A DNA stretch of 64,000 nucleotides, taken from assembly GCF_000253115.1 (NCBI RefSeq), contig NC_014145.1, forward strand, positions 558,001 through 622,000, in the 5' to 3' direction. Positions within the stretch are counted from its first letter, which is position 1, and each line of letters begins with the position of its first letter. Origin of the DNA: Thiomonas arsenitoxydans. GTDB lineage: Bacteria; Pseudomonadota; Gammaproteobacteria; Burkholderiales; Burkholderiaceae_C. Below, piece after piece: positions 35,829 to 57,960 of this stretch. Below the pieces are notes generated by a model. It had not been told where the DNA came from and searched no databases. It saw only the letters and a list, made by a program, of their open reading frames with translations. A program made the position numbers and the translations under genes.

Positions 35829-35902
35829 GCATCCAATCCAGCGGCGGTGGTGCAGGTCGGCGGGGTGTACCGAGAAGCGCAGCGATGCGTGGCGGCCTTG
35901 CG

Positions 35903-36025: not shown

Positions 36026-36128
36026 GTAGCAATGTCCTGGTGATGGTTGTCGGAACGGGTGGGGCTCTCGATTTGTCAGGGCATTATCAAATCAAACGTC
36101 CAGCGTGAACAGCCGCTGCCCCCATGGT

Positions 36129-36794
36129 CTAGCGTCCACGGCGCTTGACAAAGCCCTTTGCCTGTAGCGCGCGCAGCAGACTTGCTTCCCCTTCGCCCTG
36201 CGTAGCTTCCCAGAAATCGGCCCATAGCCGGTAGGTCTTTGTCGAGCGCACCTGTTCGTCCGGTGCCTTGCCATAGCGACCTGCGGCAACGGCTCGGGCG
36301 GCTTCTTGAACGGCCGCCAATGCCGACCGCAAGGGGTCATCGGTCCCTTTGGCATTGGTTGGCATCTGTATTGCCGTGCTGTCGGTCTTCACGCCAGAGA
36401 GCGCATCCTGCAAAGCCCCTAACCTGGTCGCAGACACTGGCATTCCGGCACTGCGCGCAGCGGCTTCACGCACCAGCCGCTGCGCTTCCTCCAGCCGCCA
36501 CCCAGGGTCGCGCTCCCTCACCTCATCCTCCAGCCGTTGCCGTTCCGCAGCTTCCCGCGCGGGCCCGCAAATCTTGGCATCAATGAAGGCGAGCTCGTCG
36601 TCTGACATCTGCTCGCGTAGTGCGGCGGGGATGGATTCGGTGGTCACCGGCAGGCTGCCTACATAGACCTGCCGCGAGTAGCCGTGCGTGTTGCCGGCAG
36701 AGCCCTTGGGCACCCAGACGGAGCGGTAGAGAAGGGCGCGGGCTCGGCGGTGTTTGATGTGCATGGCGACGGCTCTGGTGACAAGTGATGCCAT
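36129..36794 (-). CDS. Hypothetical island protein
   Basis: I do not recognise a named domain in this 221-residue protein. Its N-terminal part, MHIKHRRARALLYRSVWVPKGSAGNTHGYSRQVYVGSLP, looks like a nucleic-acid-associated or integron/ICE-type conserved leader; the middle (IDAKICGPAREAAERQRLEDEVRERDPGWRLEEAQRLVREAAARS) is a long charged helix; the C-terminus is basic (LQAKGFVKRRGR). The true start is unclear: Met 1 at 36794 or Met 11 at 36764; neither has a good Shine-Dalgarno. It is divergent from the gene at 36976. Confidence 0.6.
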   Translation of the reverse strand: MASLVTRAVAMHIKHRRARALLYRSVWVPKGSAGNTHGYSRQVYVGSLPVTTESIPAALREQMSDDELAFIDAKICGPAREAAERQRLEDEVRERDPGWRLEEAQRLVREAAARSAGMPVSATRLGALQDALSGVKTDSTAIQMPTNAKGTDDPLRSALAAVQEAARAVAAGRYGKAPDEQVRSTKTYRLWADFWEATQGEGEASLLRALQAKGFVKRRGR

Positions 36795-36943
36795 GTGTAG
36801 CCATCACCGTTCCACACGCCACCGTCGCAGGGTGACCCGGCGTATGGACCCAGCGGCACGAAGCCTGCCAACACGTCGGCACCGGGCCAATACCTCGTGG
36901 CATCGGCGTGGGTGCACCACGGAGATAAACGCGGTGCCTACAT

Positions 36944-36972
36944 GAAGTCCCAACTTCTCTGGACAGGACTTC
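36944..36972. promoter_or_regulatory. Operator-like inverted repeat
   Basis: GAAGTCC (36944) and GGACTTC (36966) form a 7-bp dyad with a 15-base gap ending three bases before ATG 36976. It overlaps the ribosome-binding region, so it could be an operator or a translation-blocking hairpin. Confidence 0.4.
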
Positions 36973-36975
36973 ACC

Positions 36976-37425
36976 ATGCCCGAGCTTCACACCGCCGCAG
37001 TCCCCAGCCGTCTCGTCACCCGTAACGAATTTGGGGCCCTTTGCCCCGAACGGACCCTATCCGCAGAGGAACGAACCTCCGTCGCCTCCTTGCTGGGCCG
37101 CGCCATCCAGGCCGACCTACTCCCCGAGTCGTACTGCACGCGCTCAAAAAAGGAAATCCAAAGCCGTAACCATCACATCTATGACGTCCTGCTCGACGAT
37201 GGACGGGTGACCGCTGTGGTTATCCTCACCCTTGATTTTTGGAAGCACCTGACCAAACTGCGCACCCGGATAGGCAAGGAGTACAACCTGCTAAAAGTCG
37301 GCGCGGATGGAGCGGTCGAGGTCATCGACATTGATGTGCGTACGTGCGCCAAGCGCGCGAAAAATGCCACGGCATGGGGCGCTTTACTCAAGGGGCAAGA
37401 CAAAGACACGTGGCCCCTAAAATAA
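36976..37425 (+). CDS. Hypothetical protein
   Basis: A 149-residue soluble protein that I do not recognise. Features: LCPERTLSAEERTSVASLLGRAIQADLLPESYC, a basic patch CTRSKKEIQSRNHHIYDVLLDDGRVTAVVILTLDFWKHLTKLRTRIGKEYNLLKV and a C-terminal RTCAKRAKNATAWGALLKGQDKDTWPLK. The fold is probably alpha+beta. It is monocistronic or leads into the GHKL ATPase gene 59 bp downstream; the gap shows no terminator. The operator-like dyad directly before its start suggests its own control. Confidence 0.6.
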   Translation: MPELHTAAVPSRLVTRNEFGALCPERTLSAEERTSVASLLGRAIQADLLPESYCTRSKKEIQSRNHHIYDVLLDDGRVTAVVILTLDFWKHLTKLRTRIGKEYNLLKVGADGAVEVIDIDVRTCAKRAKNATAWGALLKGQDKDTWPLK

Positions 37426-37484
37426 GACCTGTTGCCATATCACGCTAGTGACGCGTGTGCAAAAAGAGAAGGCTGACGCGACGC

Positions 37485-38408
37485 ATGATTTGGAAGATTC
37501 TTTTTCCCGTGGAGAGGGCCGTCCTCCTACCTCTTATCTTCAACGCAGAGACGATGCTTCCGTTTTTGGCCGAGGTCGTCGACGAGCAGCGTGACGCAAA
37601 GTGTTCAAAGGTCATTTTCGACTTCAGCAGGTTGACCTTCGTCGAACCGGTTGGTGTCGTTGTCTTATCAAATGTTATTGAGTATTTCAAAACGCTGGGT
37701 TGCAAGGTCAGCTTCAAGAACCATGCGACGGAGACTGCAGGAACGAAGTTCCTCGATGACTCCCTTTTCTTCGAGCGGTATCTTGGCAAGAGGATATTTG
37801 GTGGCTCCGTTCGCTCTACCACCATGCCGCTCAGGCTCATACATAGCGAACAGGCTCAGGCGTATTTGCTGAGCGACGTTATGCCGTGGGTTGGTCAGCG
37901 TGTGGGAATGAGGCCAGAGTCGCTCGATGGCGTTCGCGTTTCGCTCGAGGAGGTTCTTCACAACGTGCAAGACCACTCTGGGGTACGCATCGGGTGCACT
38001 TTCGCGCAGTACTTTCCGAAAAAAAATCAAATCCAGATAGCCATTTCCGACTTCGGTGCCGGAATTCCGCGCGTAGTACGAACGAGAGAGCCGAGCGCTA
38101 GTGACTCTGCGGCACTTCGCCTGGCATGCCAAGAGGGCTTCACAACGAAGAGCAATGTGCAGAACCGAGGGGCGGGTTTGCCCACTCTCATCAAGTACGT
38201 CACTCAGAACAATGGAGGCAATGTGCTCATTGTTTCCGCCCGTGGGAGCCTGTCCGCGGTTCCGAACCCTGCCGGCCCTCCCCCATATAAAATTACGGCA
38301 CGAGCCACAGGGGGGGGCTACCCGGGAACGTTGGTTCGAGTGACGCTTAGAACAGATACGCTAGAGCGGGTCGCATCGGACGCAGAAGTGGAGCCGTTCT
38401 CATGGTAG
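37485..38408 (+). CDS. STAS-like / GHKL (histidine-kinase-type) ATPase fusion
   Basis: The 307-residue protein joins two domains. Residues about 40-105 look STAS-like (SKVIFDFSRLTFVEPVGVVVLSNVIEYFKTLGCKVSF). Residues about 150-300 form a GHKL ATPase: N-box EEVLHNVQDHS (155-165), G1 box DFGAGIP (189-195) and G2 box NRGAGLPTL (227-235). There is no histidine-phosphorylation (HisKA) domain, so it resembles anti-sigma-factor kinases such as SpoIIAB or RsbW rather than a sensor kinase. GTG 37455 is an alternative start. The next gene starts within its last codons (7-bp overlap) and encodes a DUF4325 protein, so the two products probably act together. Confidence 0.8.
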   Translation: MIWKILFPVERAVLLPLIFNAETMLPFLAEVVDEQRDAKCSKVIFDFSRLTFVEPVGVVVLSNVIEYFKTLGCKVSFKNHATETAGTKFLDDSLFFERYLGKRIFGGSVRSTTMPLRLIHSEQAQAYLLSDVMPWVGQRVGMRPESLDGVRVSLEEVLHNVQDHSGVRIGCTFAQYFPKKNQIQIAISDFGAGIPRVVRTREPSASDSAALRLACQEGFTTKSNVQNRGAGLPTLIKYVTQNNGGNVLIVSARGSLSAVPNPAGPPPYKITARATGGGYPGTLVRVTLRTDTLERVASDAEVEPFSW

Positions 38409-38704
38409 TGAAGGTTATGGACCATGTGAGGACCGCATCCTCCTACGAGGATGGAGATGTCATCTTTCGTCTCATCCTTCCACCGGTAATGGAAGGACAG
38501 CGCGTTGAAGTCGATTTCACGGGCATTACGTCAGTGCCATCTGCGTTTGTAAATGCTGCATTTGTCCGCTTGCTGGAACAGGTTTCTCTGGAGCGGGCCC
38601 GGGAAGTGCTGACTTTCGTCCAGTCAACCCGGCAAATAAATGAGCTTATTCGAAGTCGCTTCGAATTTGTGGAGCAAGAAAAGAAGCGGTTGGCCGGGGT
38701 ATGA
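38402..38704 (+). CDS. STAS-like DUF4325 protein
   Basis: A 100-residue protein with the DUF4325 pattern: GQRVEVDFTGITSVPSAFVNAAFVRLLEQV, then a helix EREVLTF-type strand and VQSTRQINELIRSRFEFVEQEKKR. These STAS-like proteins are mostly found beside a GHKL ATPase, as here, and may be its partner in a way similar to anti-sigma antagonists. It overlaps the ATPase gene by 7 bp and its stop overlaps the following ATG (ATGA). Confidence 0.8.
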   Translation: MVVKVMDHVRTASSYEDGDVIFRLILPPVMEGQRVEVDFTGITSVPSAFVNAAFVRLLEQVSLERAREVLTFVQSTRQINELIRSRFEFVEQEKKRLAGV

Positions 38705-39000
38705 GTACCCCAGGCATGTCCACGGGCAAGAAGGTCGACTACCTGGTTGCTCTTCGTGTTGGGTGCGGATTCTCTAGCTGCGGTGGCACACCCATTGTAA
38801 GTACGGCGAGCCTGAAAGATTCATCGACGGCGCATGGTCAGCGAAGGTCCGCGCGCAACCTATTGGGTGAGGGCAGGCGCCGCCGCGCTAGGACGCTGTG
38901 TGGCCGGCTCCAATGGGCCGACGTCAATGGCGCGTTGAACCGCAGCAATCCACAGCGCATCGCTTGCCTCTTGGCCAAGTTGTTGCGAGTGGAATGTTGA
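38701..39000 (+). CDS. Weak reading frame after the DUF4325 gene
   Basis: The 99-residue frame starts with an ATGA overlap, which argues for translation, but its product has no recognisable domain, is rich in Arg/Ser/Cys (GEGRRRRARTLCGRLQWADVNGALNR) and may be a chance frame or the remnant of a broken gene. The convergent lipase gene ends 21 bp later. Confidence 0.25.
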   Translation: MSTPGMSTGKKVDYLVALRVGCGFSSCGGTPIVSTASLKDSSTAHGQRRSARNLLGEGRRRRARTLCGRLQWADVNGALNRSNPQRIACLLAKLLRVEC

Positions 39001-39021
39001 CAGCTATGGAACAGGACCGGC

Positions 39022-40176
39022 TCAAATGAAGCTAGCTCCCTGCGCGTCGAGTAAGGCGCTGTAATTTCCAAGATGATGCTGCCACAAGGAATCCGCGTTT
39101 TCTTCATCTGGTGCAGGCACTGCCTCAAGTGAGTACAGTTTTCCGCACTGCACATAGTTCAGGTACGGGGTAGCATTGTTCACGCTTGGGCCTTGAGCCA
39201 GGTAGCTGGTGTCGATGTTCTGACCGAGGTAACCTGCTGCAGCCTCTGCCCCATGCTTTACGACATCGGCGAGGCCGTCTCGCAGAGTGGCTACTGAGGA
39301 CTCCACGCACGCGGCTACCGTTTTCAGTATGGCGTTCTTCCGTGCGAGCCAACTGTCAATCGGGTTGTTGATGACCTCATCGGGAAGGTCCAGTGCCAAT
39401 GGAGTTTGCGGGACCCAGTCCCGCGAATTGTTGACGCAAATGGCCAAGCCGATGTTCCCGGCAGCTTGCGCAAAGTCGTGCCCATACTGCCAATTGCCTG
39501 GTTTTGGTTGCGCAAACACATAGGACTTGTAGTTGAACTCTTTAGTCTCCAGTGCGTGTGCTAGCGCGTCAGTTCCTCCGCTGCTATGCAGCAACAGCGA
39601 GTGCAACAGCGTCGCAATGGCCGCTCCTTGGCTATGACCGCAGATTAGTATGTTGCAACCCCGAGGGAGTTGCTGAAGCTTCTTCAGAATGCCAATGTCT
39701 TTGTGATACAGCAGAACCAGCGCACTCCATAAAAACCCCAAATGGACGCCCGATTTTTCGGAATTGCTTGGTTTCACCGTCGCGTACGACAGGTTGCCCA
39801 ACGGCGGACCGGCCGCAGTTAGGGGAAAGGATGCATTGCACTGCACGGTCGTTGCCAAGGCATCGTCCAGCATGCTGGAAACAGTCCCAACCGTGCCCCG
39901 GATGACGATTGCGTAGGAACCGGATGCGCCGGTGCTCGCACTATTGCGCCAACCGGCCCATGCATTGTTGAAGGGGCCAACACCATCTTGCGTTCCACCG
40001 AATCGCGATGGTTCGGGCGATGCAGGGTTCTGCGTCAGGCTCGCGAAATCGAGCGTCCACGACGTAGGAGGGGGCGGGAGAGGGGCGGGAGCAGGCAGTC
40101 CGTTCCCGTTGAGCTGCATGCACAGATTCAATGCATCGCGCGCTTCTTGAAACTGATAGCCGGAAGAAAATGCCAT
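39022..40176 (-). CDS. Class 3 lipase-like alpha/beta hydrolase
   Basis: A 384-residue protein of the lipase class 3 family. YAIVIRGTV (about 88-96) is the oxyanion strand, GHSQG (180-184) holds the nucleophile Ser182, FAQPKPGNWQYGHDFA and NNSRDWVPQTPL (likely Asp) follow, and a His in WQHHLGNY near the C-terminus completes a plausible triad. There is no signal peptide; the N-terminal PAPAPLPPPP stretch is a flexible linker. I start at ATG 40176, preceded by AAGGGG. It converges on the STAS/GHKL pair. Such lipases serve as phospholipase effectors in some defence and toxin systems; that is only an idea here. Confidence 0.75.
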   Translation of the reverse strand: MAFSSGYQFQEARDALNLCMQLNGNGLPAPAPLPPPPTSWTLDFASLTQNPASPEPSRFGGTQDGVGPFNNAWAGWRNSASTGASGSYAIVIRGTVGTVSSMLDDALATTVQCNASFPLTAAGPPLGNLSYATVKPSNSEKSGVHLGFLWSALVLLYHKDIGILKKLQQLPRGCNILICGHSQGAAIATLLHSLLLHSSGGTDALAHALETKEFNYKSYVFAQPKPGNWQYGHDFAQAAGNIGLAICVNNSRDWVPQTPLALDLPDEVINNPIDSWLARKNAILKTVAACVESSVATLRDGLADVVKHGAEAAAGYLGQNIDTSYLAQGPSVNNATPYLNYVQCGKLYSLEAVPAPDEENADSLWQHHLGNYSALLDAQGASFI

Positions 40177-40823
40177 AGCGTGACCCCTTGTCCAGTGCGC
40201 ATCGGCGCCCGCATTAACCGAACAATGTCGCGGAAATGGCTGCAACATGGTCCTTGACTAGTGGGCTTTTACAGCCACAAGTTATAGGAAAAGAGTACAT
40301 CTCTCGGCAAGGATTAACAAACCTAAGAGTGTTTCGGATTGTGTGGGGAGATGTGAACCGATGGAGCGCGCATCCAGCGGAATCCAAATCTCGGTGAGGA
40401 TGGTGTCCAGAGCATAAATTTTTGGTCAACCTATGCTTTTCTGCTATCCGCTGGGCCAGGAATTGCTTCACAAATCGGGGGACAAAAATCAGCTAACGGC
40501 ACATACTGCGCCGAGGAGTCTTCGTATTGCGCGACAGATTGCAGTTGCTGAAGCGCAGATGAATCGTGTCTGTCGACGGTAGTCAATGCCAATTGTTTGG
40601 CTTGGTCTGAAGTCTGAAGTCTGAAGTCATAGCGCGTGCCTTACCGGCCACAACGACCAACGAGGGGGTAAGTGCGACGAGCGGAAATGAACGGCAAATT
40701 TTCATGGGCTCCCAATAGAATTCCCGGCATGAACTGACCACCCACCGCGGGCGCCACGCCCGCCGACCTCAACTTGAAGCGCACGACACAGGGTTCGTGC
40801 GTCCGCAAAAAGTTGAGGTCAAC
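40177..40823. other. Gene-free stretch of about 650 bp
   Basis: I see no supportable gene. It must contain the lipase promoter. It is lower in GC than its surroundings in 40230-40640 and includes three tandem copies of GTCTGAA (40605-40625). Short minus-strand frames here encode no family-like protein. Confidence 0.5.
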
Positions 40824-41036
40824 ATGCAAAACCAGTACGAAGCCGCGCGCGAACTCCTCGCCGCCGGCGCCTTCATCGAGCAGGTCTCGGACGCTCCGCT
40901 CGCCTACCGCATCCGACTCGGTAGTGATTCGGCCCCGTTGCCGGCCGGGCTCTTCCAGCAGCTGCTTGCCCACAAGCAGATACGCCAGAGCTGCAGGGTG
41001 AGTGGGAGGATGCGGTACGTAATCGTCGAGGTGTGA
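40824..41036 (+). CDS. Small hypothetical protein
   Basis: The 70-residue product MQNQYEAARELLAAGAFIEQ... has two helices and a strand pattern (LAYRIRLGSDSAPLPAGLFQQLLAHKQIRQSC, RMRYVIVEV). GAGG stands seven bases before ATG 40824, and GC3 use fits a real gene. I do not recognise the family. It converges on the HNH remnant. Confidence 0.5.
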   Translation: MQNQYEAARELLAAGAFIEQVSDAPLAYRIRLGSDSAPLPAGLFQQLLAHKQIRQSCRVSGRMRYVIVEV

Positions 41037-41061
41037 GGGGAGGCGCTGAGGCCGAGAACGC

Positions 41062-41345
41062 TCACTCCATTGGCCGGTACACCTCAACCAGCGCTAGGTG
41101 GCGCTCCAGGTGCTCGCCCATGTACCGGCCAAATTTCCCCTCATCCTCAAGCCGTAGCTGACTGGCATTGAGGACGCGCCCACTCTTCTTTGTAGTTCAA
41201 GCTGCGTCACCTCTTGGCGAACACGCGGATGGATTGGGCGGAAGCCCTCGCGTGACGGGTCAAAGCTCAGCTGGTAGCCGTCGAAAAGCTTGTCGACGTG
41301 GGCAACGAGAAGCAATCCGTTCATTGGGTCGATAGCAATTGGCAC
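41062..41345 (-). pseudogene. Remnant of an HNH-type nuclease, frameshifted
   Basis: The minus-strand frame reads AIDPMNGLLLVAHVDKLFDGYQLSFDP, the DPxNGLLL..H.DKLFD pattern that forms the second half of a large HNH nuclease family. After QEVTQL the frame is lost, but two bases on it resumes as SGRVLNASQLRLEDEGKFGRYMGEHLERH and ends at 41062. The N-terminal part with the zinc and first His residues is absent; the upstream sequence is already the helicase gene. It is a decayed C-terminal fragment. Confidence 0.65.
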
Positions 41346-41436
41346 TTGTAGCAGAAACGGCTGCGGCGCAATGGCTAAAGTGGGACCTGCGCGCAGAAAA
41401 GGCGCCGTCTGACTGGCAACTTGAGTACGAGTCCGC

Positions 41437-43638
41437 TTAGCCCGGCGAAAGACCCCTTGCCCAAGTCAGCGCCTCATCGATGTCAAGCCGGAGGCTTGCA
41501 TACGTGTTGCGTAGCAGACTATCCGGAAGCGACCAATCCCACTTTTCACGCTGGAGATTCTTTGCGTCAGCCAGCAGATACTCAAGGGAAGGAGTGGCGC
41601 TCGCGCCAATTTCTAACAGGACGGCGGCAATCTCGTGCGCTGATTCGTGGTGTTTGGGGACCTCGATACCTGGACCGCCTGCTGTCGAGGCGACTCCCCG
41701 AGACTGCAGGAGGCAAGCTAGGGCTTCGTTTGCCGCGTCTCCGAGCCAAGTTAAAAGGACCAGTTCGGAGCCCTGGTCCACCAAGTAGGACTCAGCGAGG
41801 CCGCGTCTGGCATAGGTAGCTCTGGACTCGTCCAGGAAGCGCGCAGCTGCTGCGTCAAGATAGGCTGGAACCTCAGTCGATTCGAGCAATTGCCGCATTC
41901 GCTGGCGTACCCGAGTGTGCGTACGGCCGACCCCACCGGAAAAGAGCGGAGGTGTGCCGCCTCCTGCGCGTGTGACGAAAATGGATTTCTGTTCTTCGTC
42001 AATTTCCTCAACGCGCCAGGTTCTTCCAGCGAACAAGATGCGCTGCCCAATTGTCAGAGCTTGGGATACAGGCAAGGTGCCGAGCGTCTTGCTGCCGGCG
42101 ATGATGCGAAATTCCTCATCCGTCGCAAATGCAGCATAGAACGAGTAGTGGTTGACCATCTTCTCGCCAATACGCCCATGCAGTAGGAGGCCAGACGGGT
42201 CCTGCATGAGCAGCTCCTTCTTCCCGAGGTGCCTAACCAGCTCCACTAATTCACCCTTCGAGACACCGATGAAGGGCGATGCCGGGCCACACAAAAGGTG
42301 GTAAAGCTCTCCGATGGTCGCGCCTCCGTTCTGCGCAATGAAGGAGAGTATTTGCTGGACCAGTGTCGAAAGATGTGCGCCATTAGCTACCGGCGGCTCG
42401 AACCAACCTTCCCGCAGAAGCGAAATCATCGCTGTCATCTGAACGGTGTCGAGACGGAGTTCATCAGCGAGGGAAAGTCTGCCGCCCTGAGCGTTCTCTA
42501 CGCAGTATCCCCTGAGTACAGCTGGCTCGCCTTTGCGTCGCCCGGAGCGGCCTAACCGTTGCCTGAGGCTCGCAACGGACGGAGGAGGTCCAATCTGGGC
42601 CACACTCTTCACCGCGCCTATGTCGATGCCTAACTCCAATGTGTTGGTGCAGATGGCCGTCGCCGGGCGCTCTCTTTGTTTGAGCGCTGCCTCTGTTTCC
42701 GAGCGAATTTCCTTCGAGAGACTTCCGTGGTGCGGCCAGAACTCGTTCGGTACCTGCTGTTCCTGGCATAGCCCATTCAGCAAGTGCGTGTAGCGCTCAA
42801 CCTCGCGACGTGAGTTGGGAAAAATGAGGTTATTCGACCCACGAAGGCTCTTGAAGAGATGCGCTGCAATCTGGGCAGGCGTCACTGGCTCAGGCGCTTC
42901 ATCGTCGTCCCGCTGACGCACAACCAGCGGTTCTTCGTAGCCCTTCACCAGAACCTTCAGCTCTGCGGAGAATTCTTTGGACTCGACCAATGCAACCCCT
43001 GAGCCCGCCCCTGGGCGCAGGAATTCTGCAGCTAAGCTCATGTCCCCGAGCGTTGCCGACAGGCCAATTCGAGGAACCGACCGGCCAATAGCACGCTCCA
43101 CGCGATGCATCAGCGACTGAAGTTGCTTACCACGCTCTGAGCCAATGAATGCGTGGAGCTCGTCGACCACAAAAAAAGTGAGACTTCCGAAGACCGCGGC
43201 GATGGAAGTCCCGCGGTTGCACAGCAAAGCCTCCAACGATTCCGGCGTGATGAGCAAGACACCATGCCGCTTGGCCAGGAACCGCGTCTTGGTGGCTGCG
43301 GAGACATCACCGTGCCAGGGCCACACGGGGATTTCCAGCTGTTCACACAATTGGCTGAGGCGCCCAAACTGGTCGTTGATGAGCGCCTTGAGCGGGCTGA
43401 TATAGGCGATGAGCCCGGGAGGTGAAGATTGAAGCAAGTGCGTCAGTGCTGGCAGGAAGGCTGCCTCCGTCTTGCCACTTGCGGTGGCCGCCGCCACGAT
43501 GACGTCCCGGTCTGCGCGAACGATGAGCGGGATTGCCTTCTCCTGGGCGTATCGCAGTGACTCCCAGCCCTCTGCCCAGATGAAGCGTTGGATGCGCTCA
43601 TCCAACAAGTAAAACGCGCTGGACTCTTGCTGAGTCAT
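41437..43638 (-). CDS. Lhr-like DExH helicase (BrxHI-type)
   Basis: The 733-residue superfamily 2 helicase has motif I ATASGKTEA (51-59), Ia SPLKALINDQ, Ib TPESLEALL, motif II DELH (159-162), III SAT (194-196), IV-V NTLELGIDIG and motif VI QRLGRSGRR (359-367), then a winged-helix and Lhr-like C-terminal part. It resembles the DExH helicase BrxHI that accompanies BrxD in type 2 BREX. It would move on DNA using ATP. It is the last gene of a three-gene set, 109 bp after the BrxD-like gene; the gap has no clear terminator. Confidence 0.82.
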   Translation of the reverse strand: MTQQESSAFYLLDERIQRFIWAEGWESLRYAQEKAIPLIVRADRDVIVAAATASGKTEAAFLPALTHLLQSSPPGLIAYISPLKALINDQFGRLSQLCEQLEIPVWPWHGDVSAATKTRFLAKRHGVLLITPESLEALLCNRGTSIAAVFGSLTFFVVDELHAFIGSERGKQLQSLMHRVERAIGRSVPRIGLSATLGDMSLAAEFLRPGAGSGVALVESKEFSAELKVLVKGYEEPLVVRQRDDDEAPEPVTPAQIAAHLFKSLRGSNNLIFPNSRREVERYTHLLNGLCQEQQVPNEFWPHHGSLSKEIRSETEAALKQRERPATAICTNTLELGIDIGAVKSVAQIGPPPSVASLRQRLGRSGRRKGEPAVLRGYCVENAQGGRLSLADELRLDTVQMTAMISLLREGWFEPPVANGAHLSTLVQQILSFIAQNGGATIGELYHLLCGPASPFIGVSKGELVELVRHLGKKELLMQDPSGLLLHGRIGEKMVNHYSFYAAFATDEEFRIIAGSKTLGTLPVSQALTIGQRILFAGRTWRVEEIDEEQKSIFVTRAGGGTPPLFSGGVGRTHTRVRQRMRQLLESTEVPAYLDAAAARFLDESRATYARRGLAESYLVDQGSELVLLTWLGDAANEALACLLQSRGVASTAGGPGIEVPKHHESAHEIAAVLLEIGASATPSLEYLLADAKNLQREKWDWSLPDSLLRNTYASLRLDIDEALTWARGLSPG

Positions 43639-43747
43639 GGTTGTCTGCGCACGTGCGGCAAGGCCAAACTGACGGAGGGTGGCAGGAGCCTGTGGAGAGA
43701 CTCCGCGACTTGTCTTCCGGGTCTCATGGATAGCAAGAGGCTGGGCG

Positions 43748-45052
43748 TCACATTTTGAACGATGCGAACTCGTCGTCGTTGACTTCGACCGTTAGGTCTG
43801 CAGCTCCGCCTTTGTCCTCCACCACGTCGAGGCCACCGAGCAGTTCCTGCCAAGAGGTTCCCGGGTTCTGCTCAAGCACGGCCAAGAAGTCGATGAAGGC
43901 CTTGATGGTGGTTCGCGGCGTTCGAAAGTAGGCGTTGCCTATGCGCTTCGAACAGTGCTCCATGAAGCTGGAGATGCCCTGGTCCGGGATAAGGTGCTTC
44001 TCCACGTCGCCGAAAGCGTAGACGCTGCGAATTTTCTGGAGAAGCACGTAGAACTCTTCGGGGGCGATACTGGACAACCGGATGACCGGGCCGCTGAGGT
44101 CCACCAGGCCGTTGGTGGCAAAGCTGTTCTGGGCCAATCGACTCTGCAAAGCGGGGTAGCTGAACAGCCCGCGACGTGTGTCGAGCATGAACTCGGGTGT
44201 TCCGCCCAGCACGAAGCCGAGGCCCACAGCTGTGCCTTGTAGCGAGTCGTTCAAGATGCGCAGCACCTGCTCGTAATTCGCGTTGCGAGCTTGCACGTTC
44301 GCCAGTTTGTACAGATTGACCATCTCGTCGAGCCCGACCAGCAAGCCGGAAAAGCCTGCGAGCCGAACAAACCGGGCCATGAGCTTGAGCTGGTCGTATA
44401 CAGAAGCGTCGTCAACGTAGCTACGTACTCCAAGGGCTTCGCGGGCATCGGTCTTAGTGCTGAACTCGCCACGCAACCAGCGCACCGCATCCGATTTGAG
44501 CTGCTCATTGCCCTCGTCATGGCCTCTGCAGTAGGCTGCGATGACGTCCGCGAAGTCGTAGCCGTTGACCAGCTCAGTCAGTTGGTCAAGCTTCTGGCGC
44601 AGTACAGGTTCCGTGGGCTGCCCGGACGTTTTGGCCTCGGCCTTCGCGGTGGAGATGAATTTCTCCACGATGCTACTAAGTGCTCCGCCGTCGGGCTTGG
44701 TGCGCGTAGACAAGTTGCGCATCAACTCGGCATATAGCGACCGAACTTGACCACCGCCCGCATGCAACCTGCGGTCCGGGTTCAGGTCGGCCGTTGCAAC
44801 GACGAGTTTTTTCTCCATGGCAACCGAGCGAACCAGGTTCAAGAAAAACGTCTTTCCTGCGCCGTATTCGCCGATGACAAGGCGGAATGCGGAGCCCCCA
44901 TCGGCCACGCGCTCAATGTCCGCAACGAGGGTTTCAATCTCTCGCGCACGACCTACCTGAATAAGACGCTGCCCCACGCTGGGCACCACTCCGGCACGCA
45001 GCGATTGGAGGACGGCGTCTCGGTCCTTGGGGCGAATGATGGCGGTATTCAT
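43748..45052 (-). CDS. BrxD-family P-loop ATPase (DUF2791)
   Basis: The 434-residue protein matches the BrxD layout along its length: KDRDAVLQSLRAGVVPSVGQRLIQVGRAREIETL, Walker A GEYGAGKT (61-68), ATADLNPDRRLHAGGGQVRSLYAELMRNLST, Walker B LLVGLDE (237-243) followed by MVNLYKL, and FVLGGTPEFMLDTRRGLFSYPALQSRL. BrxD is the AAA-like ATPase of type 2 BREX; the family also occurs with TerB-domain proteins. The gene overlaps the TerB gene before it by 4 bp. No BREX methylase, PglZ or PglY/BrxC gene is present in the window. Confidence 0.87.
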   Translation of the reverse strand: MNTAIIRPKDRDAVLQSLRAGVVPSVGQRLIQVGRAREIETLVADIERVADGGSAFRLVIGEYGAGKTFFLNLVRSVAMEKKLVVATADLNPDRRLHAGGGQVRSLYAELMRNLSTRTKPDGGALSSIVEKFISTAKAEAKTSGQPTEPVLRQKLDQLTELVNGYDFADVIAAYCRGHDEGNEQLKSDAVRWLRGEFSTKTDAREALGVRSYVDDASVYDQLKLMARFVRLAGFSGLLVGLDEMVNLYKLANVQARNANYEQVLRILNDSLQGTAVGLGFVLGGTPEFMLDTRRGLFSYPALQSRLAQNSFATNGLVDLSGPVIRLSSIAPEEFYVLLQKIRSVYAFGDVEKHLIPDQGISSFMEHCSKRIGNAYFRTPRTTIKAFIDFLAVLEQNPGTSWQELLGGLDVVEDKGGAADLTVEVNDDEFASFKM

Positions 45053-47574
45053 GCTCGTATTTTTTCGAGGATTTCCGGGTTCACGATGACCGGGTCATCC
45101 CCTTCGGAGAACGGGATATCGTGAGCGTCAAATGCTGCGTCGTTGATGTGCTCAAGCGCGCCATCAAGCATGAGGTCGAGGTCGCCAGCGATGTCCAGAA
45201 GGTCTTCGCGACTCCACTCGCGTTGACTCACCAGCATGCGTGCGAAGGAGGAGTGCGCCTCATCCAGTCCAAGTAGCGTCGTGGATGTCGGCGCAGCGTC
45301 CGTGTCTTCCGGCTGCTCCCCCACCGGAGTCGTTGAGGCAGCGGCGGGTCCCTGTGCTTGCTCACTCTCCACAAAGATGTCTGCCAAGAGCGCCGACACA
45401 CGCTCCGTGTCCCTCTGGAGGGCGGCGATGCGCTCCGGGTCAAGCCGGAGTCCCGCATCATCTTTGGCAGGAGCAGGCGTGATTGTGAGGCGCTTGCCCG
45501 CTGCGGCTCCATGCACATCGGAGAACACCTTTTGGGGGTCGACACCCAGGGTCTTGTAAACCTTTTCCAAGGTCTTCAACTCCGCCGGGGAGACTTCGCC
45601 ATCCGGCCGTACCAGAGTCGCCATGAACGCCGCAATGGCCTCCTTGGCTGGAAGTTCAACGGCTTCGAACTTTTTCTTAAGTGCCGTCAGCGATGTAGGT
45701 GCTTGATGCAGCAGTCGTAGCAGAGCCAGCAATCGCGATGCCTGCCCAGGTGTTAGGTGTTGCCAGGAGCGGACTGCCTCGCGCAAGAATCCCGCCTTGG
45801 CGTTGCTTGTCTCGTTGTCCGAGCCCACCACGGTCGAGGCCAGTTGGAGGGTGAGAACTGCCACATGGAAGGAGCTGCCTCCGCGTATCGCTCCCGACTC
45901 AGCAGGCAGTTTGAATACAACCACAGGGTCTTCTGGCTTTGGGAGTTTGGCTTCCCCCAATACGTCAGGCTCAAAGCCGATACCGGAGGCCTCTAGAACG
46001 CGCGCCAGAGCAAGGGTCTTCTCCTTCGTGAAGATGGTTTTTGCATTCAAAGCGGCCAGCAAGGCACCGAAGGTCATCTCGGCAACGCCGTCGACCATGC
46101 GTGACTGAAGGTTCTGGATGACTTCTCGTACCGCCAAGGGCCAGAGCGGTTCCGGAAGTTGCAGCACTGCCTCTAGGGACTCCTTGAACGCGGGGTCCCT
46201 CCCAACTAATCGGCTGTACGACTCCAGTGGTTTGGTTGCCGCGTCAACGACCGCTTGAAGCTTCTTGGTCGGCCCCGTGAGTACGGTGATGTCTGGGATA
46301 TTGCCGAAAGTGAGTTTCGGCTCGTGAACCTCAGAGCTACCGCGGAAGCCCGAAGAAGCTGGGTGGTAGCTGAATTTCAGCTTGGTCCGATTGTGCGGTA
46401 ATTGGATGCCACGACCACACTGTGTCTCGTACTCTTGGTGGAACATTTTTTCGAATTCGTCTGCGCATCTCTGCGCTGGCGTGCGAAGGTAGACAGTCGG
46501 CGCCATCCGCGCCCAAGCGAGCGCGATATGGACTGGAACGGGCACGCCGTCGACCGCGGTCTGACCGAGCGCGAGTCGAAGGTAAAGCGGAAGCTCGTAG
46601 GCCTCGGCCAATGCGGGAACGGGCTTTTCGTACAGACGGGGCGGGTACTCAGCCAGCTCTACCCATTCCAGGAGCTGGTGCGCGTGATGCCGAAACGAAC
46701 CAGACGCAGCTCCATAGGCGCTCAGCAGTCCGCGCAGTTCGGCCGCTATGGCAGGTAGCTCGAACCGGGCCCGCTCGTCTACAGGCGCGTCGAGGAGAAC
46801 CCGCCGCTCCAGCCCGTAGAAGAAGAGGAAGACGAACCCTACGTCAGCGGCTGGGTCTCGACGTCCGCTAGCCAGCCAGGTGAGGTACGCGCGCCGAGCG
46901 TCGGGCGACACCTCGGCATAGCTTGGCCAATAGGTCGTCTGCCTTTCGGCATAGTTGCCGACTTTGGCAACCGGCTTAGATGGGTCGATGAGACACGGGT
47001 CATTGCGGCCATACGGCGTCGGCAGCGACGTGCCGACGTAGACCATGCCGTCCGGCAGGACCATCCCAGCGACGGCGACCGACTCACCCGGAGGTGTCCA
47101 GCGGGCCTGGCCAAAGCCCTTAGGAGGAGAGGGCACCCGAAAGGTTGGTGTTGCTTGTGGTTTTACTATCGGGCCGGAGATGGGGACGGGCACGTCGGGC
47201 GTTGAAGTCTTGGCGGCTATGGGCGTTTGAACCTGTTGAAGTGTCGGCTCGATTCGATGTGCCGAAAGTTGCTCCATGTGAGCCGTTCTAGGCGCTGCAA
47301 GATGTTCCGCGAGCACATCCTTTCCGACAGGGGCCTGGGTCATCGGCGACGGAACTGTGGATTGCCACACGTCGCGCTGGGCCGGCCGGGGCACGGACAC
47401 CGGTGAGGGAGATTTCTTGTATTTTGTGGCGAGTAGGTACAGAAGGAAGCCGACTGCCGCGACCACGCCGATGCCAATCCAGACCTCCTTGGGAATGGAC
47501 GTCAGAAGTACGAGCGCGCCAAAAAACAGAACCGCCGCCGCGCCGCCTGAGCTCGATTTTCTTCTTCTTGCCAC
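45049..47574 (-). CDS. Membrane-anchored TerB_N / TerB / TerB_C protein
   Basis: The 841-residue protein starts with a basic patch and two membrane helices (about residues 11-27 and 30-49), then a Pro-rich linker to about 165. A TerB_N domain follows (DPSKPVAKVGNYAERQTTYWPSYAEVSPDARRAYLTWLASGRRDP, about 200-330). Near the end lie a TerB-like helical unit (AIAAFMATLVRPDGEVSPAELKTLEKVYKTLGV, about 650-690) with the acidic metal-binding pattern D-G-x-V-x-x-x-E, and a TerB_C-like tail. These domains belong to the tellurite-resistance-linked Ter systems, thought to act at the membrane in stress and phage response. It heads the TerB-BrxD-helicase operon. Confidence 0.82.
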   Translation of the reverse strand: MARRRKSSSGGAAAVLFFGALVLLTSIPKEVWIGIGVVAAVGFLLYLLATKYKKSPSPVSVPRPAQRDVWQSTVPSPMTQAPVGKDVLAEHLAAPRTAHMEQLSAHRIEPTLQQVQTPIAAKTSTPDVPVPISGPIVKPQATPTFRVPSPPKGFGQARWTPPGESVAVAGMVLPDGMVYVGTSLPTPYGRNDPCLIDPSKPVAKVGNYAERQTTYWPSYAEVSPDARRAYLTWLASGRRDPAADVGFVFLFFYGLERRVLLDAPVDERARFELPAIAAELRGLLSAYGAASGSFRHHAHQLLEWVELAEYPPRLYEKPVPALAEAYELPLYLRLALGQTAVDGVPVPVHIALAWARMAPTVYLRTPAQRCADEFEKMFHQEYETQCGRGIQLPHNRTKLKFSYHPASSGFRGSSEVHEPKLTFGNIPDITVLTGPTKKLQAVVDAATKPLESYSRLVGRDPAFKESLEAVLQLPEPLWPLAVREVIQNLQSRMVDGVAEMTFGALLAALNAKTIFTKEKTLALARVLEASGIGFEPDVLGEAKLPKPEDPVVVFKLPAESGAIRGGSSFHVAVLTLQLASTVVGSDNETSNAKAGFLREAVRSWQHLTPGQASRLLALLRLLHQAPTSLTALKKKFEAVELPAKEAIAAFMATLVRPDGEVSPAELKTLEKVYKTLGVDPQKVFSDVHGAAAGKRLTITPAPAKDDAGLRLDPERIAALQRDTERVSALLADIFVESEQAQGPAAASTTPVGEQPEDTDAAPTSTTLLGLDEAHSSFARMLVSQREWSREDLLDIAGDLDLMLDGALEHINDAAFDAHDIPFSEGDDPVIVNPEILEKIRA

Positions 47575-47790
47575 CAGCCCTTCCCCTCAAGCACGTCCGC
47601 ACCTACCGGGCACTATGAGGGAGAATAGCGCGTGTGTGCTTAGGTAGTTCCCGAGCCTTCCTCTTCACTACGCGGGCAAACGTAACAAGAATTTGCGCCC
47701 AGGGTCAAATAGCCAGTTGCGATTGCGCGTTCACGTGAATCGGCGAAGAGCTTTGGCTTAAGCAGCGGTGTGGTCCGGAGGGGCACAGTG

Positions 47791-47854
47791 CTCAAGGAGC
47801 CGGTCGACCCGAAGCCGCGGCTCCCTGAAGCGTCCTGGCGCTCTACCACTTGAG
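47791..47854 (-). other. tRNA-like remnant
   Basis: On the minus strand CTCAAG...CTTGAG forms a terminal stem around 64 nt. The 5' part reads like a D-arm (CTCAAGTGGTAGAGCGC) and a TTCGGGTC stretch sits where a T-loop would be, but the anticodon stem and the T-stem do not pair properly. It may be the decayed end of a tRNA gene, for example an old integration scar, or a chance hairpin. Confidence 0.3.
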
Positions 47855-48154
47855 AAACCATCTAGAAGCTTCTGTCACGCATGCTGGACGGCAGTGCTGA
47901 GATGTCCTTCCGTGCAGTAGCAGCTTGGAACGTTTTCCGTTATAAAAGGTATCTAGGTCGGCAGACCAATCATGCTCACGCTAACCCCATGCCATTCACC
48001 AACCGGCTGCTGGCGGATGCTTCGGACGTCGTTGCTGCTTGGCACGAGCGCAGCACCCCGCCCACGCCCTCAGAGGCCGCTACTTAGCACTCTCCGCGCA
48101 TCGCCGGGATGCCAGCGGTGACACCGATGCAAGCAACATGCGTGCACGGTCCGT

Positions 48155-48171
48155 GGCATCACTGTGATGCC
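48155..48171. promoter_or_regulatory. Operator-like perfect palindrome
   Basis: GGCATCAC and GTGATGCC flank a single T, giving a 17-bp dyad typical of a dimeric repressor site. No gene start is within 300 bp. Confidence 0.4.
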
Positions 48172-48389
48172 CTCGCAGGGCAACCGGCGGCACCCTCACC
48201 ATCGACTAGCGCGCCATCACAAACCCCCACCCCGACGGCGCCATAGGCCATCACCTTGCCGAGCCCTCCGGCGGACGGTGCTGCGTCCAGCAGCGTGCAT
48301 TGCACGGAGAGTTGCTGAGAGTAAGGGTCACGCTACTCCCAGTCGATACGCGAACGAGGAGTCAGCTGCCGCGACCGGGCACGGCAAGG

Positions 48390-48698
48390 CGGTGCGAACC
48401 GCCGCCGTCCCAGCGCAGCCCCCTCCGATGGACTGAGCGGGCGCCGCCAGGCGCGCGGCTGCAAGCAGCTCGGGCCCCGGGCTTTCAATGACCGAACCCA
48501 GGGTGGCGCGCTCACCCAAGGGGTGGGAGCACGATTTTCCACGTGGAAAGTCACCTTCCCCGGGGGCACCTTCGATGGCACGGCTGCTTGAAAGACCGGG
48601 CCAGCTGCGAGGAGACGGCTGCTGGAAGAACAGTTGGTGCCGACGTCGATGGACATAGGGCCTCGATAGACGGTTAGGGACGGCGGCGGTTCGCACCG
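48390..48698. repeat. 22-bp perfect inverted repeat, arms 48390-48411 and 48677-48698
   Basis: The left arm reads CGGTGCGAACCGCC and on, and the right arm is its exact reverse complement. The 265-bp spacer holds the CACGTG palindrome. The arms could be ends of a small non-autonomous element or binding sites; no flanking target duplication is evident. Confidence 0.6.
48533..48552. promoter_or_regulatory. parS-like CACGTG palindrome
   Basis: A perfect 14-bp palindrome TTTCCACGTGGAAA (48536-48549) extends to 20 bp with one mismatched pair. The CACGTG centre and flanking TTTC/GAAA resemble chromosomal ParB sites (TGTTTCACGTGAAACA) but the match is incomplete. No parAB genes are in the window. 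Confidence 0.35.
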
Positions 48699-48988
48699 GC
48701 GAAGCCGGGCGGGGAGCACAGCGGCCTTGTCGGACGTCGCGACGAAAACATGAACGACGCGCGCCCTAGCGCGCGAGGCAGTCTGCGGGGATGACACCCA
48801 TTGCCCCCTGCCCGCAGGCGGCCGTGCGTGAACCCTCGCCCAACCAACATCAGCCCGACGGCGGCGTGGTGGGCTGGCTATTAGGCCCTGATGGCGCGGT
48901 CATCTCTACACGAGACATGCCGCTGCTGCCGTGACGAGACAAGCGCTGGACAGCGGCCCCGAAAACGACACACACGGAGCCCCCAGCC

Positions 48989-50263
48989 ATGCAAGCACGA
49001 ACGAAGACACGCCCAAACGCAACACGCGATGCCGGGCCAGTCGCCACAGGTTCACCCTCGCCCGCAACAGGTGGCGCCACCTCCGGCATCACCGTGAGCA
49101 CGCGAAACGGCGTAACGGCTGTAACGCGTAACGGCGTAACCAACGAGGCCAAACTCGGCGACACGCCGGTTACAGCGTTACACGGTTACGACGACCAACG
49201 CCCGCTCGCACCCTCTCGCGGTCTGACCACCAGGGCATCGAGCCTCCATCTGCGTGACGCCATTTTCGAACGGTCCCTTCGGCTCGCAAACAGATTTAGG
49301 GTCATCCGCACCATCGACGTCGCCGCCGCTTGCTTTCCCGAGCGCCCATTCAAAGCTTCCCTGACAGCAGCCCAACGGGCGGTCCGCGGCATGGTCAAGC
49401 GTGGCCTTCTGCGTCGTTACAGGACCGACCGATTCCAGACGGTCTACGGACTCACGCAGCCCGGCGTAGATTGGCTCGGCGACCATGGCCACGACGCCGC
49501 ATCTTCAGTGCGAAGGGTCAGCGATATGACCAATCCCGAACACCGATTGTGGGCCCAATTTCTTGTGGTTTGCAGCTGGGCGCGAGGCCTCCGTGCGGTC
49601 ACAGAATCCGAGCTCCTGCATGACCTCAATGCCAATGCCAAAGCTGGCACGCGCAATGGGAGCAGCAAGGCCGTCCAAGGTTACATCACCGTGAGCGTCC
49701 ATCGCCGCGGCGCCTCTGTCCGCAAGCACCTGCGCCCAGATGCCGTCGCGTTCGATGTGGAGGGGCGAGGCGTCACCTGGTTCGAGGTTGACCGCAGCAA
49801 GCGTGGCTCAGACCGCGCGGCCGACTTGGCTGCTCTGGTCGGAGCAATTGGCAACAAAACGGCCGACGGTCGCGTTCTCCGCCGCGTTGTCGTCATGTGC
49901 AAAACCGAGCGCATTGAGCGGGATGCCCTGCGCATCGTCGAGCAGCTCGCGGCTGCTTGCAATCAGCTCGTGCTGACCGAAGGGCGTAGGCACATCCGGC
50001 GGCAGAGTGATGGCGTCTATGAAGTGATGGCGGCAATCCCGGTCAAGCGTCAGGACGGTCGAACCGCGCTGATAGACGAGCAAGTTGGGCATGTCATCGT
50101 GCAGATGCTGCCAATCTGGCTGCCGAAGGTGCGGATTGACGCGAGCAATCGATGGAGCACCGATGGTTGGTTCAGCGACAACTGCCTCCCGTACAGGCGG
50201 CCAGGAAACCTCAGCCTATGGCCGATGCCCGGGTCGCCGCTCGTCACGGTGGACGATGAGTGA
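48989..50263 (+). CDS. Replic_Relax-family replication/mobilisation protein
   Basis: The 424-residue protein has an N-terminal low-complexity part (1-85), a winged-helix segment (about 95-165: NRFRVIRTIDVAAACFPERPF...MVKRGLLRRYRTDRFQTVYGLTQPGVDWL) and a nuclease-like core with HLRPDAVAFDVEGRGVTWFEVDRSK (Asp251, Glu266, Asp268). This D-E-x-D layout and the wHTH match the replication-relaxation (Replic_Relax) family of plasmids and integrative elements. It lies just after the palindrome-rich stretch, and its first 200 bp contain the GTAAC/GTTAC cluster. Shine-Dalgarno GGAG precedes ATG 48989. The SSB gene follows, with a short overlap in an upstream frame. Confidence 0.7.
   Translation: MQARTKTRPNATRDAGPVATGSPSPATGGATSGITVSTRNGVTAVTRNGVTNEAKLGDTPVTALHGYDDQRPLAPSRGLTTRASSLHLRDAIFERSLRLANRFRVIRTIDVAAACFPERPFKASLTAAQRAVRGMVKRGLLRRYRTDRFQTVYGLTQPGVDWLGDHGHDAASSVRRVSDMTNPEHRLWAQFLVVCSWARGLRAVTESELLHDLNANAKAGTRNGSSKAVQGYITVSVHRRGASVRKHLRPDAVAFDVEGRGVTWFEVDRSKRGSDRAADLAALVGAIGNKTADGRVLRRVVVMCKTERIERDALRIVEQLAAACNQLVLTEGRRHIRRQSDGVYEVMAAIPVKRQDGRTALIDEQVGHVIVQMLPIWLPKVRIDASNRWSTDGWFSDNCLPYRRPGNLSLWPMPGSPLVTVDDE
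49112..49189. repeat. GTAAC/GTTAC cluster with about 8-bp spacing
   Basis: GTAAC occurs at 49112, 49121, 49128 and 49136, then its complement GTTAC at 49169, 49177 and 49185 (exact 8-bp steps). Four copies face one way and three the other around a centre near 49150. The repeats lie inside the coding start of the Replic_Relax gene (translated as TRNGVT repeats). The layout resembles iterons or a multimeric protein-binding site. Confidence 0.65.
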
Positions 50264-50319
50264 CCCGTCGCTACACGAAGGGATGGCGCCATGCCATCTC
50301 CATTCGAATAGGACAAAAC

Positions 50320-50649
50320 ATGCAAGTTTTTGGAAACGTCGCGACCGCGCCGGAGCGAAAGGTCAGCAAATCCACTGGGCGGGGACATTTTGAGTTTCGC
50401 TTGGCAGAGAGCCAGCGCGGTGTCGATACCGAACCGACCTGGTACACGGTGCGCGTGATGAAGGACCACAACCCCAAGCTCGACAAGGGCGCGTTTGTCA
50501 AAGTCACTGGAAAGCTGAAAACCGACTTCTACCTTTCACGCGAAGGCAAACCGACCGGCACCCTGTTGATTCTGGCATTCGAGGCGACCAAGCTGGCCAA
50601 ACCCGCCGCGCAGGCCACCGAGCCTGCGCGGCAAGAACAAGAAGACTGA
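50320..50649 (+). CDS. ssb: Single-stranded DNA-binding protein of the island
   Basis: A 109-residue OB-fold protein: MQVFGNVATAPERKVSKSTGRGHFEFRLAESQR, WYTVRVMKDHNPKLDKGAFVKVTGKLKTDFYLSREGKPTGTLLILAFEATKLA. It is shorter than chromosomal SSB and the C-terminal tail ends in QEQED rather than the usual DDDIPF tip. I start at ATG 50320, six bases after AGGA. A strong terminator follows. It likely serves replication or transfer of the element together with its neighbours. Confidence 0.85.
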   Translation: MQVFGNVATAPERKVSKSTGRGHFEFRLAESQRGVDTEPTWYTVRVMKDHNPKLDKGAFVKVTGKLKTDFYLSREGKPTGTLLILAFEATKLAKPAAQATEPARQEQED

Positions 50650-50670
50650 CTGGTCTTCGTTGATTCCAGC

Positions 50671-50694
50671 GCCCCCGACACCGGGGGCTTTTTT
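50671..50694 (+). terminator. Terminator after ssb
   Basis: GCCCCCG/CGGGGGC stem (50671-50688) followed by six T. Confidence 0.9.
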
Positions 50695-50900
50695 CTTGGT
50701 TTTATGGAAAAACCTTCCACGGCTGACCCTCCATAGCTCCCATCGCCGGCTTGGCGCGTGTCGAAGACCTGCCGATGACTGCAGGTGGATAAATGCACTG
50801 CCTAGACGTGCCAGCTGATGCCAAAAACAGGCGTCAGTCGGCGTGAGAGTCCGCAGTCGGTCGGCGTCTCTGCCCATAAACGACCGGCTGGAGTTTCACC

Positions 50901-51116
50901 ATGGAAGCACAAAAATTGCTCGACCTGGACGAGCTCGCGCAGATGCTGCGACGCAGCCCCGAGACCATCAAAAAAGACCTTCGCCGCAACCCAGACGCCG
51001 TGCCGCCGCGATTGATGCTGCCGCATACGCGCCTGCTGCGGTGGCGCGCTGTGGATGTCGATGCCTGGCTTGGGCAATACGTGCAGCCGGCCATGCCTCG
51101 CGGGAGGCTGCAATGA
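50901..51116 (+). CDS. AlpA-like helix-turn-helix protein
   Basis: The 71-residue protein MEAQKLLDLDELAQMLRRSPETIKKDLRRNPDAVPPRLMLPHTRLLRWRAVDVDAWL is an excisionase/AlpA-type winged helix. P4-like elements use such proteins to control integrase or replication genes. Its stop overlaps the start of the helicase gene (ATGA), so both are made together. Confidence 0.82.
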   Translation: MEAQKLLDLDELAQMLRRSPETIKKDLRRNPDAVPPRLMLPHTRLLRWRAVDVDAWLGQYVQPAMPRGRLQ

Positions 51117-52393
51117 CGCGCCGCGCATTCCAGCCCCATCTCTACGCCAGCCACGCCGTCGCGACCGGTGGCATCGCCTCGGACTCCAACCTTCTCTATC
51201 AGTGGACGGGCACTCACTGGTCCCCTATCGATGAAGAAGCGGCTGAACGCGATGCGTACGCGTGGCTCGTCGCGCAAGACCCTGCTTGGGCGAGTGCCGA
51301 GAACGCCCGTAAGGCAGTTCGTGCTGCGAGTCTTTTTTCCCCACGCCTGCCCAAGCTCACGGATGCGGTCGTCGTGCCGACCCAGTCCGGCTACGTGCAT
51401 CTTGACGGAGCAGAGCTCGTTCTAAAGCCCGCCGACCCGAGCCTGGGGCTGACGCATTGTCTCGATTGCCCTTATGCGCCTGAGGGCGTGATGCCAGCCC
51501 ACTTCGCAGCCTTTGTCCAAAGGGTATTGCCGGACCCCAGCGTACGGGCACGCGTGCAGGAGTACATCGGCTACACACTTCTTGCGGATGCGCGTTACCA
51601 GCGGGCACAGTTTTGGCTCGGCGAAGGCGCCAATGGCAAGGGGGTTCTCGCAAATGTGGTCCAAGCCCTCCACGGCCACATCGCGGCAATGGCGCTGGAC
51701 CAGTTGGCCGGCTTTCATCTGTCGGTCCTCGTTGGTGCAAGCCTGGTCTATGTCGACGAGGTGCCTCGCAAACCGATTGACGAGCAGCGGCTCAAATCCA
51801 TGATTGCCGGGGAGCGCATACCCGTGGACCGCAAGTACCGCGAACCACTCAGCATCCATGTGCGCGGAAAGTGGCTTGTTCTCGGTAACCACCTCCCGGC
51901 CATATCCGACCACAGCAGCGGCTTTTGGCGGCGTTGGGACGTGGTGCCGTTTTCGGTCACGATTCCGGAGCGCGAGCGTGACCCGCTCCTCGCGCAGACC
52001 ATCGTCCGCGAAGAACTGTCCGGCGTGCTGCGCTGGGCTCTCGATGGACTGGTGCGGCTACAAACCCGTGGAGGCTTTGACCCTGTCATGCCGGCGGCAA
52101 TGCAGGCGATGCTGCAAGAAGCCAAAGCGGACACGAATTCCGTCGTGGCGTGGGTTGAAGACCTCGGCGTGAAACTACAGCTGGCGTGTGATGTCCCGAA
52201 GGAGCGTGTGTTCGAACACTATCGCAACTGGTGCGCGGTCAATGCCATGCACGAGGTGAGCGTCGTCCAATTCTGGAAGCGGGTGCGCGAGCATTTTCGG
52301 GAATTGACCGAGGCGCGCATACGGACGGGGCCTGGCCAGCGGCGGGTCTGCAATGTGAAGCTCTCGGCATCGACGACAGACCTGGATATCTGA
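51113..52393 (+). CDS. P4/D5-type replication helicase (superfamily 3)
   Basis: A 426-residue protein with the D5_N/P4 C-terminal layout: YIGYTLLADARYQRAQFWLGEGANGKGVLANVV with Walker A (170-177), Walker B LVYVDE (211-216), FKSMIAGERIPVDRKYREPLSIHVRGKWLVLGNHLP and DHSSGFWRRWDVVPF with the arginine finger. The N-terminal primase part found in full P4 alpha proteins is absent. It is the replicative helicase of satellite phages, plasmids and integrative elements. ATG 51113 overlaps the AlpA-like gene; the frame upstream of that has no similarity. A terminator lies 26 bp after the stop. Confidence 0.88.
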   Translation: MTRRAFQPHLYASHAVATGGIASDSNLLYQWTGTHWSPIDEEAAERDAYAWLVAQDPAWASAENARKAVRAASLFSPRLPKLTDAVVVPTQSGYVHLDGAELVLKPADPSLGLTHCLDCPYAPEGVMPAHFAAFVQRVLPDPSVRARVQEYIGYTLLADARYQRAQFWLGEGANGKGVLANVVQALHGHIAAMALDQLAGFHLSVLVGASLVYVDEVPRKPIDEQRLKSMIAGERIPVDRKYREPLSIHVRGKWLVLGNHLPAISDHSSGFWRRWDVVPFSVTIPERERDPLLAQTIVREELSGVLRWALDGLVRLQTRGGFDPVMPAAMQAMLQEAKADTNSVVAWVEDLGVKLQLACDVPKERVFEHYRNWCAVNAMHEVSVVQFWKRVREHFRELTEARIRTGPGQRRVCNVKLSASTTDLDI

Positions 52394-52418
52394 ACTGAAG
52401 GGCTGCATCAAGGGCGCG

Positions 52419-52449
52419 GGGCGCGAGTGCATTGGTCTCGCGCCCTTTT
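52419..52449 (+). terminator. Terminator after the helicase gene
   Basis: GGGCGCGAG and CTCGCGCCC pair over a nine-base loop, followed by TTTT. Confidence 0.85.
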
Positions 52450-53039
52450 GCGTTGGCTCTGCCCGAGGAATGGCCGTGCCGAGTGTGCCAGGCGAAAATC
52501 CCAAAGACTTTGGGTTGTGTGACTCCTATTTCCTTTTTCCTTATCTTTCGCGAAAGTTTGGATTCTGACCCGTCACACTCGGCACAGAAGCAGCATTCAT
52601 CCATCAAAACAATCACCTACAACATGCGCCGGGTGCGCCTTTGACCCGGCAACAGCCAGCACAGCCAAGGCAGCCACTTGGCGCATGACCCTGGCCCGAG
52701 TCGGGGCCAGGCAGGGCGACCACCACGAACCGCCGGTGGCAGGCCTCGAATACGCATGGGACAGGGGCAACCGGCTCTGCGTCCCACCGCCACACTGGCC
52801 GACCAGAGTTGGCCAGTGCATGAAGCAAGACAATCTATCCAGGAAGGAAAGGGTCCAGGGTCGACGCGGCTCTCCAAGGATGCGTTCCGGCGCGGTGGGT
52901 CTGGCAAACCAAGCTGAAGGACGCATGCGCGCCCGCAACGTCCCGCTGGTGGCTGGGTGCTTGCGCTGTGATTTCGACTTCTGTCGATGACGCTTGACTT
53001 GCTGACGCCTGAATCAGTCCATGAGAGATGCCACCCATG
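52450..53039. other. Gene-free stretch of about 590 bp
   Basis: Apart from the terminator before it I see no supportable gene, RNA or repeat family here. The last 100 bp should hold the promoter of the nucleotidyltransferase gene. Confidence 0.45.
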
Positions 53040-53068
53040 TTTCAGTAAACTATTTGAAATTACTGAAA
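53040..53068. promoter_or_regulatory. Operator-like 9-bp inverted repeat
   Basis: TTTCAGTAA (53040) and TTACTGAAA (53060) are exact complements with an 11-base spacer, 13 bp upstream of the nucleotidyltransferase ATG. This AT-rich site in GC-rich DNA could be an autoregulatory operator. Confidence 0.55.
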
Positions 53069-53081
53069 TTCGCGCAACGCC

Positions 53082-57949: not shown

Positions 57950-57960
<11 letters not shown>

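Follow-up and report, generated by a model that had tools for sequence, protein, structure and literature searches.

The DNA analysed here, a stretch of 64,000 nucleotides of Thiomonas arsenitoxydans (contig NC_014145.1, positions 558,001 to 622,000; below called the window), carries three adjacent genes for a TerB-domain protein, an ATPase and a helicase, and the question is to which system they belong. A first-pass annotation of the window had proposed a stand-alone defence module in which a membrane TerB protein, coupled to a BrxD-like ATPase and a BrxHI-like helicase, replaces the core of type 2 BREX (bacteriophage exclusion). By their profile scores the three genes are almost certainly the complete anti-phage operon sngA-sngB-sngC of the already described Shango system, and with hardly less confidence this complete operon can be said to be carried on an integrative island in a tRNA-Pro gene. 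The module is stand-alone and serves defence, as proposed, but it is not new.

All three genes are intact and lie on one strand in the order A-B-C, and their extents as well as the 4-bp overlap of the first two agree to the base with the first reading (Table 1). In the comparison with PADLOC models each of them received a name, the first as SngA (336.7 bits, 1.1e-100), the second as SngB (592.4 bits, 1.5e-178; second model BrxD, 159.4 bits) and the third as SngC (902.3 bits, 7.7e-272; second model BrxHI, 393.4 bits). The candidate of an unnamed new system was therefore dropped; the gene trio itself is ordinary and no new type of system. Pfam searches matched SngA, the 841-residue protein, to TerB_N (217.4 bits), TerB (33.4 bits) and TerB_C (122.8 bits), as had been recognised from the letters; a winged helix may lie at the end of TerB_C. 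SngB matches BrxC_BrxD over residues 6-406 (507.5 bits) with intact Walker A (GEYGAGKT) and Walker B (LLVGLDE) motifs, and SngC matches DEAD (102.1 bits) and Helicase_C (55.4 bits) with the DExH helicase motifs DELH, SAT and QRLGRSGR intact. The kinship with BrxD and BrxHI is real but the closer identity is SngB and SngC: the NCBI equivalog model for BrxD gives SngB 156.6 bits, under its cut-off of 350, and each of the 24 NCBIfam matches of SngC stays under its own cut-off.

In the passages available from PMC10250203, the Shango of Pseudomonas aeruginosa PA14 is described as three genes for a TerB-like protein, an ATPase and a DEAD/DEAH helicase, which cause a modest, 10-100-fold drop in plating of many but not all phages and also protect liquid cultures; an E. 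coli copy with anti-phage activity is cited there as well. Judged by models and descriptions, the present trio has the same three protein types as those of PA14 and E. coli and shows no difference in kind. The E. coli Shango is said to go back to Millman 2022. In a helicase tree, as given in excerpts of PMC12278908, SngC clusters with BrxHI, DruE and DpdJ, which explains the earlier impression of a BrxHI. Excerpts of PMC10952713 and PMC12926258 name Bunzi and Dionysus as further defence systems with a TerB domain, and these are likened to Shango by name and description only.

For the recurrence of the trio, contigs were scanned with SngB and the best 80 of at least 545 confirmed relatives were kept; this set includes near-copies, so that the loci are not all independent, and contig ends truncate some of the copies. 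SngA stands directly upstream of SngB in 79 of the 80 loci (in the exception, L017, sngA is rearranged) and SngC directly downstream in 79 as well (L020 runs into a contig end), while the ATGA overlap between sngA and sngB is retained in 76 of 77 scorable loci (L017, L078 and L081 omitted). Because both partners are linked to this extent and the overlap is kept, the grouping is not due to chance, and the trio recurs elsewhere as a unit. The nearest named loci among the 80 belong to Pseudorhodoferax and Hydrogenophaga, with SngB 85% identical. Two loci may hold tandem copies: L078 has second SngA-type and SngB-type matches next to the main trio (6360-11290), and L012 a second SngA-type match (up to 17223). 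Within the genus, SngB was found in this genome alone among 13 genomes, and a survey of 200 genomes of the family, this one included, gave SngA matches in six, three of them above 200 bits. The same trio with its 4-bp overlap is present on annotated plasmids of Methylibium, Arthrobacter and the archaeon Natrinema. Of 72,556 plasmid records, 678 contain relatives of SngA, including 450 from Klebsiella and 144 from Salmonella, with SngB and SngC confirmed for the three plasmids just named only. Among 50,697 phage records a single one has a match, which is short and weak.

As one more Shango, the locus is chiefly useful because it illustrates clearly how the system travels: its 41-kb island, bounded by tRNA-Pro sequences, has a nearly identical counterpart in a second genus. 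That counterpart lies in a genome (G044) assigned to another genus of the same family and shares 99.98% identity with the island from 32722 to 70296 and 100% from 72752 to 73709 (positions beyond 64,000 continue the numbering of the window past its end). Left of 32722 there is no match to G044 in the stretch compared, and to the right of the island the two chromosomes can be aligned only patchily, at about 66-91% identity. The natural reading of this near-identity is a recent transfer of the island between the two genera. An insertion of about 2.45 kb within the island integrase is present here and absent from G044; its three open reading frames presumably represent an IS66-type transposase set. 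The island also carries a type I restriction-modification set (56251-63550, plus strand; HsdM 569, HsdS 430 and HsdR 1069 amino acids) with a gene for an Mrr-type nuclease between HsdS and HsdR (59255-60298), which is the PADLOC candidate PDC-S02. An additional Shango gene among the neighbours was considered and rejected, since 22 of 23 island proteins had no match in the 80 loci; of the island genes tested, the other Shango loci examined share none but the trio itself and a WYL-domain regulator, the latter in 3 of 80 loci. This regulator lies at 65735-66679 of the continued numbering (L098 1735-2679), and its relative in L012 is found immediately upstream of sngA.

How such a system might work is suggested by the N-terminus of SngA, for which the first-pass annotation had noted two membrane helices. 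Hydropathy places hydrophobic segments at residues 11-27 and 33-49, in agreement with the AlphaFold2 model, which has helices at 11-25 and 29-52, then a low-confidence stretch of about 100 residues and finally a confidently modelled body (mean predicted local distance difference test score 80.1). The linker at residues 53-150 contains 18% proline. Both outer flanks of the hairpin are positively charged, and both of its ends are therefore predicted to be cytoplasmic. When transmembrane segments were called by hydropathy alone (window length 17, mean at least 1.7), 60 of 74 usable loci (L011, L017, L056, L068, L070 and L081 omitted) had segments ahead of TerB_N, two of them in 52 loci. The same holds for 118 of 120 homologues, the best listed of 1207 out of 8000 candidates scored, with two segments, spaced 1-5 residues apart, in 114. 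Where the motif at the start of TerB_N was missing (15 of the 74 loci, 9 of the 120 homologues), residue 160 was used instead. The other 14 loci have no predicted segment, which on a quick tree requires at least seven gains or losses; as the start of SngA was taken as the first ATG, GTG or TTG of the frame, some of these absences may reflect a wrong start or a frameshift. Membrane helices are thus common in SngA and probably form an anchor, and the idea of an anchor peculiar to this window was dropped. Among the titles and abstract openings of the listed literature on Shango with membrane or transmembrane, none describes a membrane anchor, and the word 'transmembrane' has no occurrence in PMC10250203. 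Longer forms of SngA also exist, namely P0112 (1125 amino acids, with a long N-terminal addition; it carries PF14020) and the frame of L031 (1380 amino acids, likewise with a long N-terminal addition).

Should the anchor prove functional, it would offer a starting point for the mechanism of Shango, which is listed as unknown in the part of a 2026 review at hand (PMC12926258). The hairpin and the disordered linker, about 100 residues long, would tether SngA to the inner membrane while its TerB body reaches into the cytoplasm. SngB, putatively an AAA+ ATPase of the ORC/Cdc6 type, would assemble at phage DNA that is entering or being replicated, or close by, and, under control of the membrane-held SngA, load or activate the SngC helicase. 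SngC would then unwind or strip the phage DNA, so that replication is blocked or the DNA is exposed to host nucleases. As a whole we offer this sequence of events tentatively, as a possibility with somewhat less than an even chance. The sensor role given to the TerB protein in the first reading is likewise something we would only infer. Rather more doubtful is the generalisation that most Shangos are membrane-tethered helicase-loading machines, in which a hairpin-anchored TerB protein positions an ORC/Cdc6-like loader and a superfamily 2 (SF2) helicase at the site of phage DNA entry on the inner membrane, to unwind this DNA ahead of its replication, and in which the hairpin is a detachable module with several gains or losses in its history.

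Shango could instead be abortive, the SngA hairpin being the effector that depolarises the membrane once SngB and SngC sense phage DNA. The closely spaced hydrophobic pairs of the listed homologues would suit such an effector, as would the lack of any nuclease family in the three proteins by Pfam search. However, 14 of the 74 loci have no predicted segment, and a short helix pair with a proline-lysine turn resembles an anchor; we consider an abortive Shango unlikely. Far less probable is a DNA-repair or metal-stress (Ter-type) module with no role in phage defence. The TerB family does take its name from tellurite resistance, and the top NCBIfam relative of SngC is a ligase-associated DNA-damage helicase (210.2 bits, below the cut-off of 850), but the plating effect of the like trio from PA14, as reported in the passages of PMC10250203, speaks for defence, as do the type I restriction-modification genes on the same island.

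With respect to BREX, the BrxD-BrxHI pair of type 2 systems is also linked (excerpt of PMC12839542) and consists of a related AAA+ ATPase and SF2 helicase. Unlike type 2 BREX, the trio has a TerB protein as partner, an ATPase that fails the BrxD equivalog cut-off and no PglZ match in its genome (the genome-wide search covered PglZ only). In 50 other Shango genomes, drawn from the 80 loci, PglZ was found anywhere in the genome in four, one being that of L017, a count taken irrespective of proximity to Shango. The N6-methylase that the window encodes is classed by its scores as a type I HsdM. Since PglZ is absent here and present in so few of the others, there is no BREX core being replaced, and nothing supports the claim that the TerB protein had taken its place. 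A type 2 BREX locus that broke down or was reduced, leaving BrxD and BrxHI beside an unrelated TerB gene, can be practically discounted: SngB and SngC are genuinely related to these proteins, but the Shango models score much higher, SngA is tied to SngB throughout the loci, and 46 of the 50 genomes lack PglZ.

Table 1. Positions of the Shango genes, their parts and the island that carries them, in window numbering.
Feature	Position	Strand	Description	Basis
sngA	45049..47574	-	841 amino acids, GTG start; TerB_N/TerB/TerB_C protein, predicted membrane anchor	Pfam, PADLOC
sngB	43748..45052	-	434 amino acids; BrxC/BrxD-family AAA+ ATPase	Pfam, PADLOC, motifs
sngC	41437..43638	-	733 amino acids; SF2 DExH helicase related to BrxHI	Pfam, PADLOC, motifs
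sngA/sngB overlap	45049..45052	-	stop/start overlap, 4 bp (ATGA)	open reading frame coordinates
Membrane hairpin	47419..47544	-	predicted two-helix hairpin, sngA codons 11-52	hydropathy, AlphaFold2, flank charge
TerB_N domain	46474..47094	-	SngA residues 161-367	Pfam
TerB domain	45529..45846	-	SngA residues 577-682	Pfam
TerB_C domain	45055..45474	-	SngA residues 701-840	Pfam
Integrative island, window part	32722..64000	.	part of an island of about 41 kb, which runs on to about 73707 (continued numbering)	match to G044
Left att repeat	32725..32771	.	47 bp, copy of tRNA-Pro(CGG) 3' end	repeat comparison
Right att copy	73631-73677 (continued numbering)		47 bp, inside tRNA-Pro(CGG) gene	repeat comparison

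Beside Shango lies an uncharacterised module (37455-38704, plus strand), in which a gene for 149 amino acids without Pfam match precedes a HATPase/STAS protein gene (weak Pfam match; phrog_3364 with 140 bits) that overlaps a DUF4325 STAS-like gene. The island may have its own replication genes, as suggested by two proteins encoded at 50260-52393 (plus strand): one resembles single-stranded DNA-binding proteins (27.5 bits against a cut-off of 26), and the other, a DUF5906 protein, has matches to phage primase families of up to 210.5 bits. Just outside the island, at about 31237-31275, a run of some 38 bases recurs many times in several of the genomes from this genus and looks like a dispersed repeat family.
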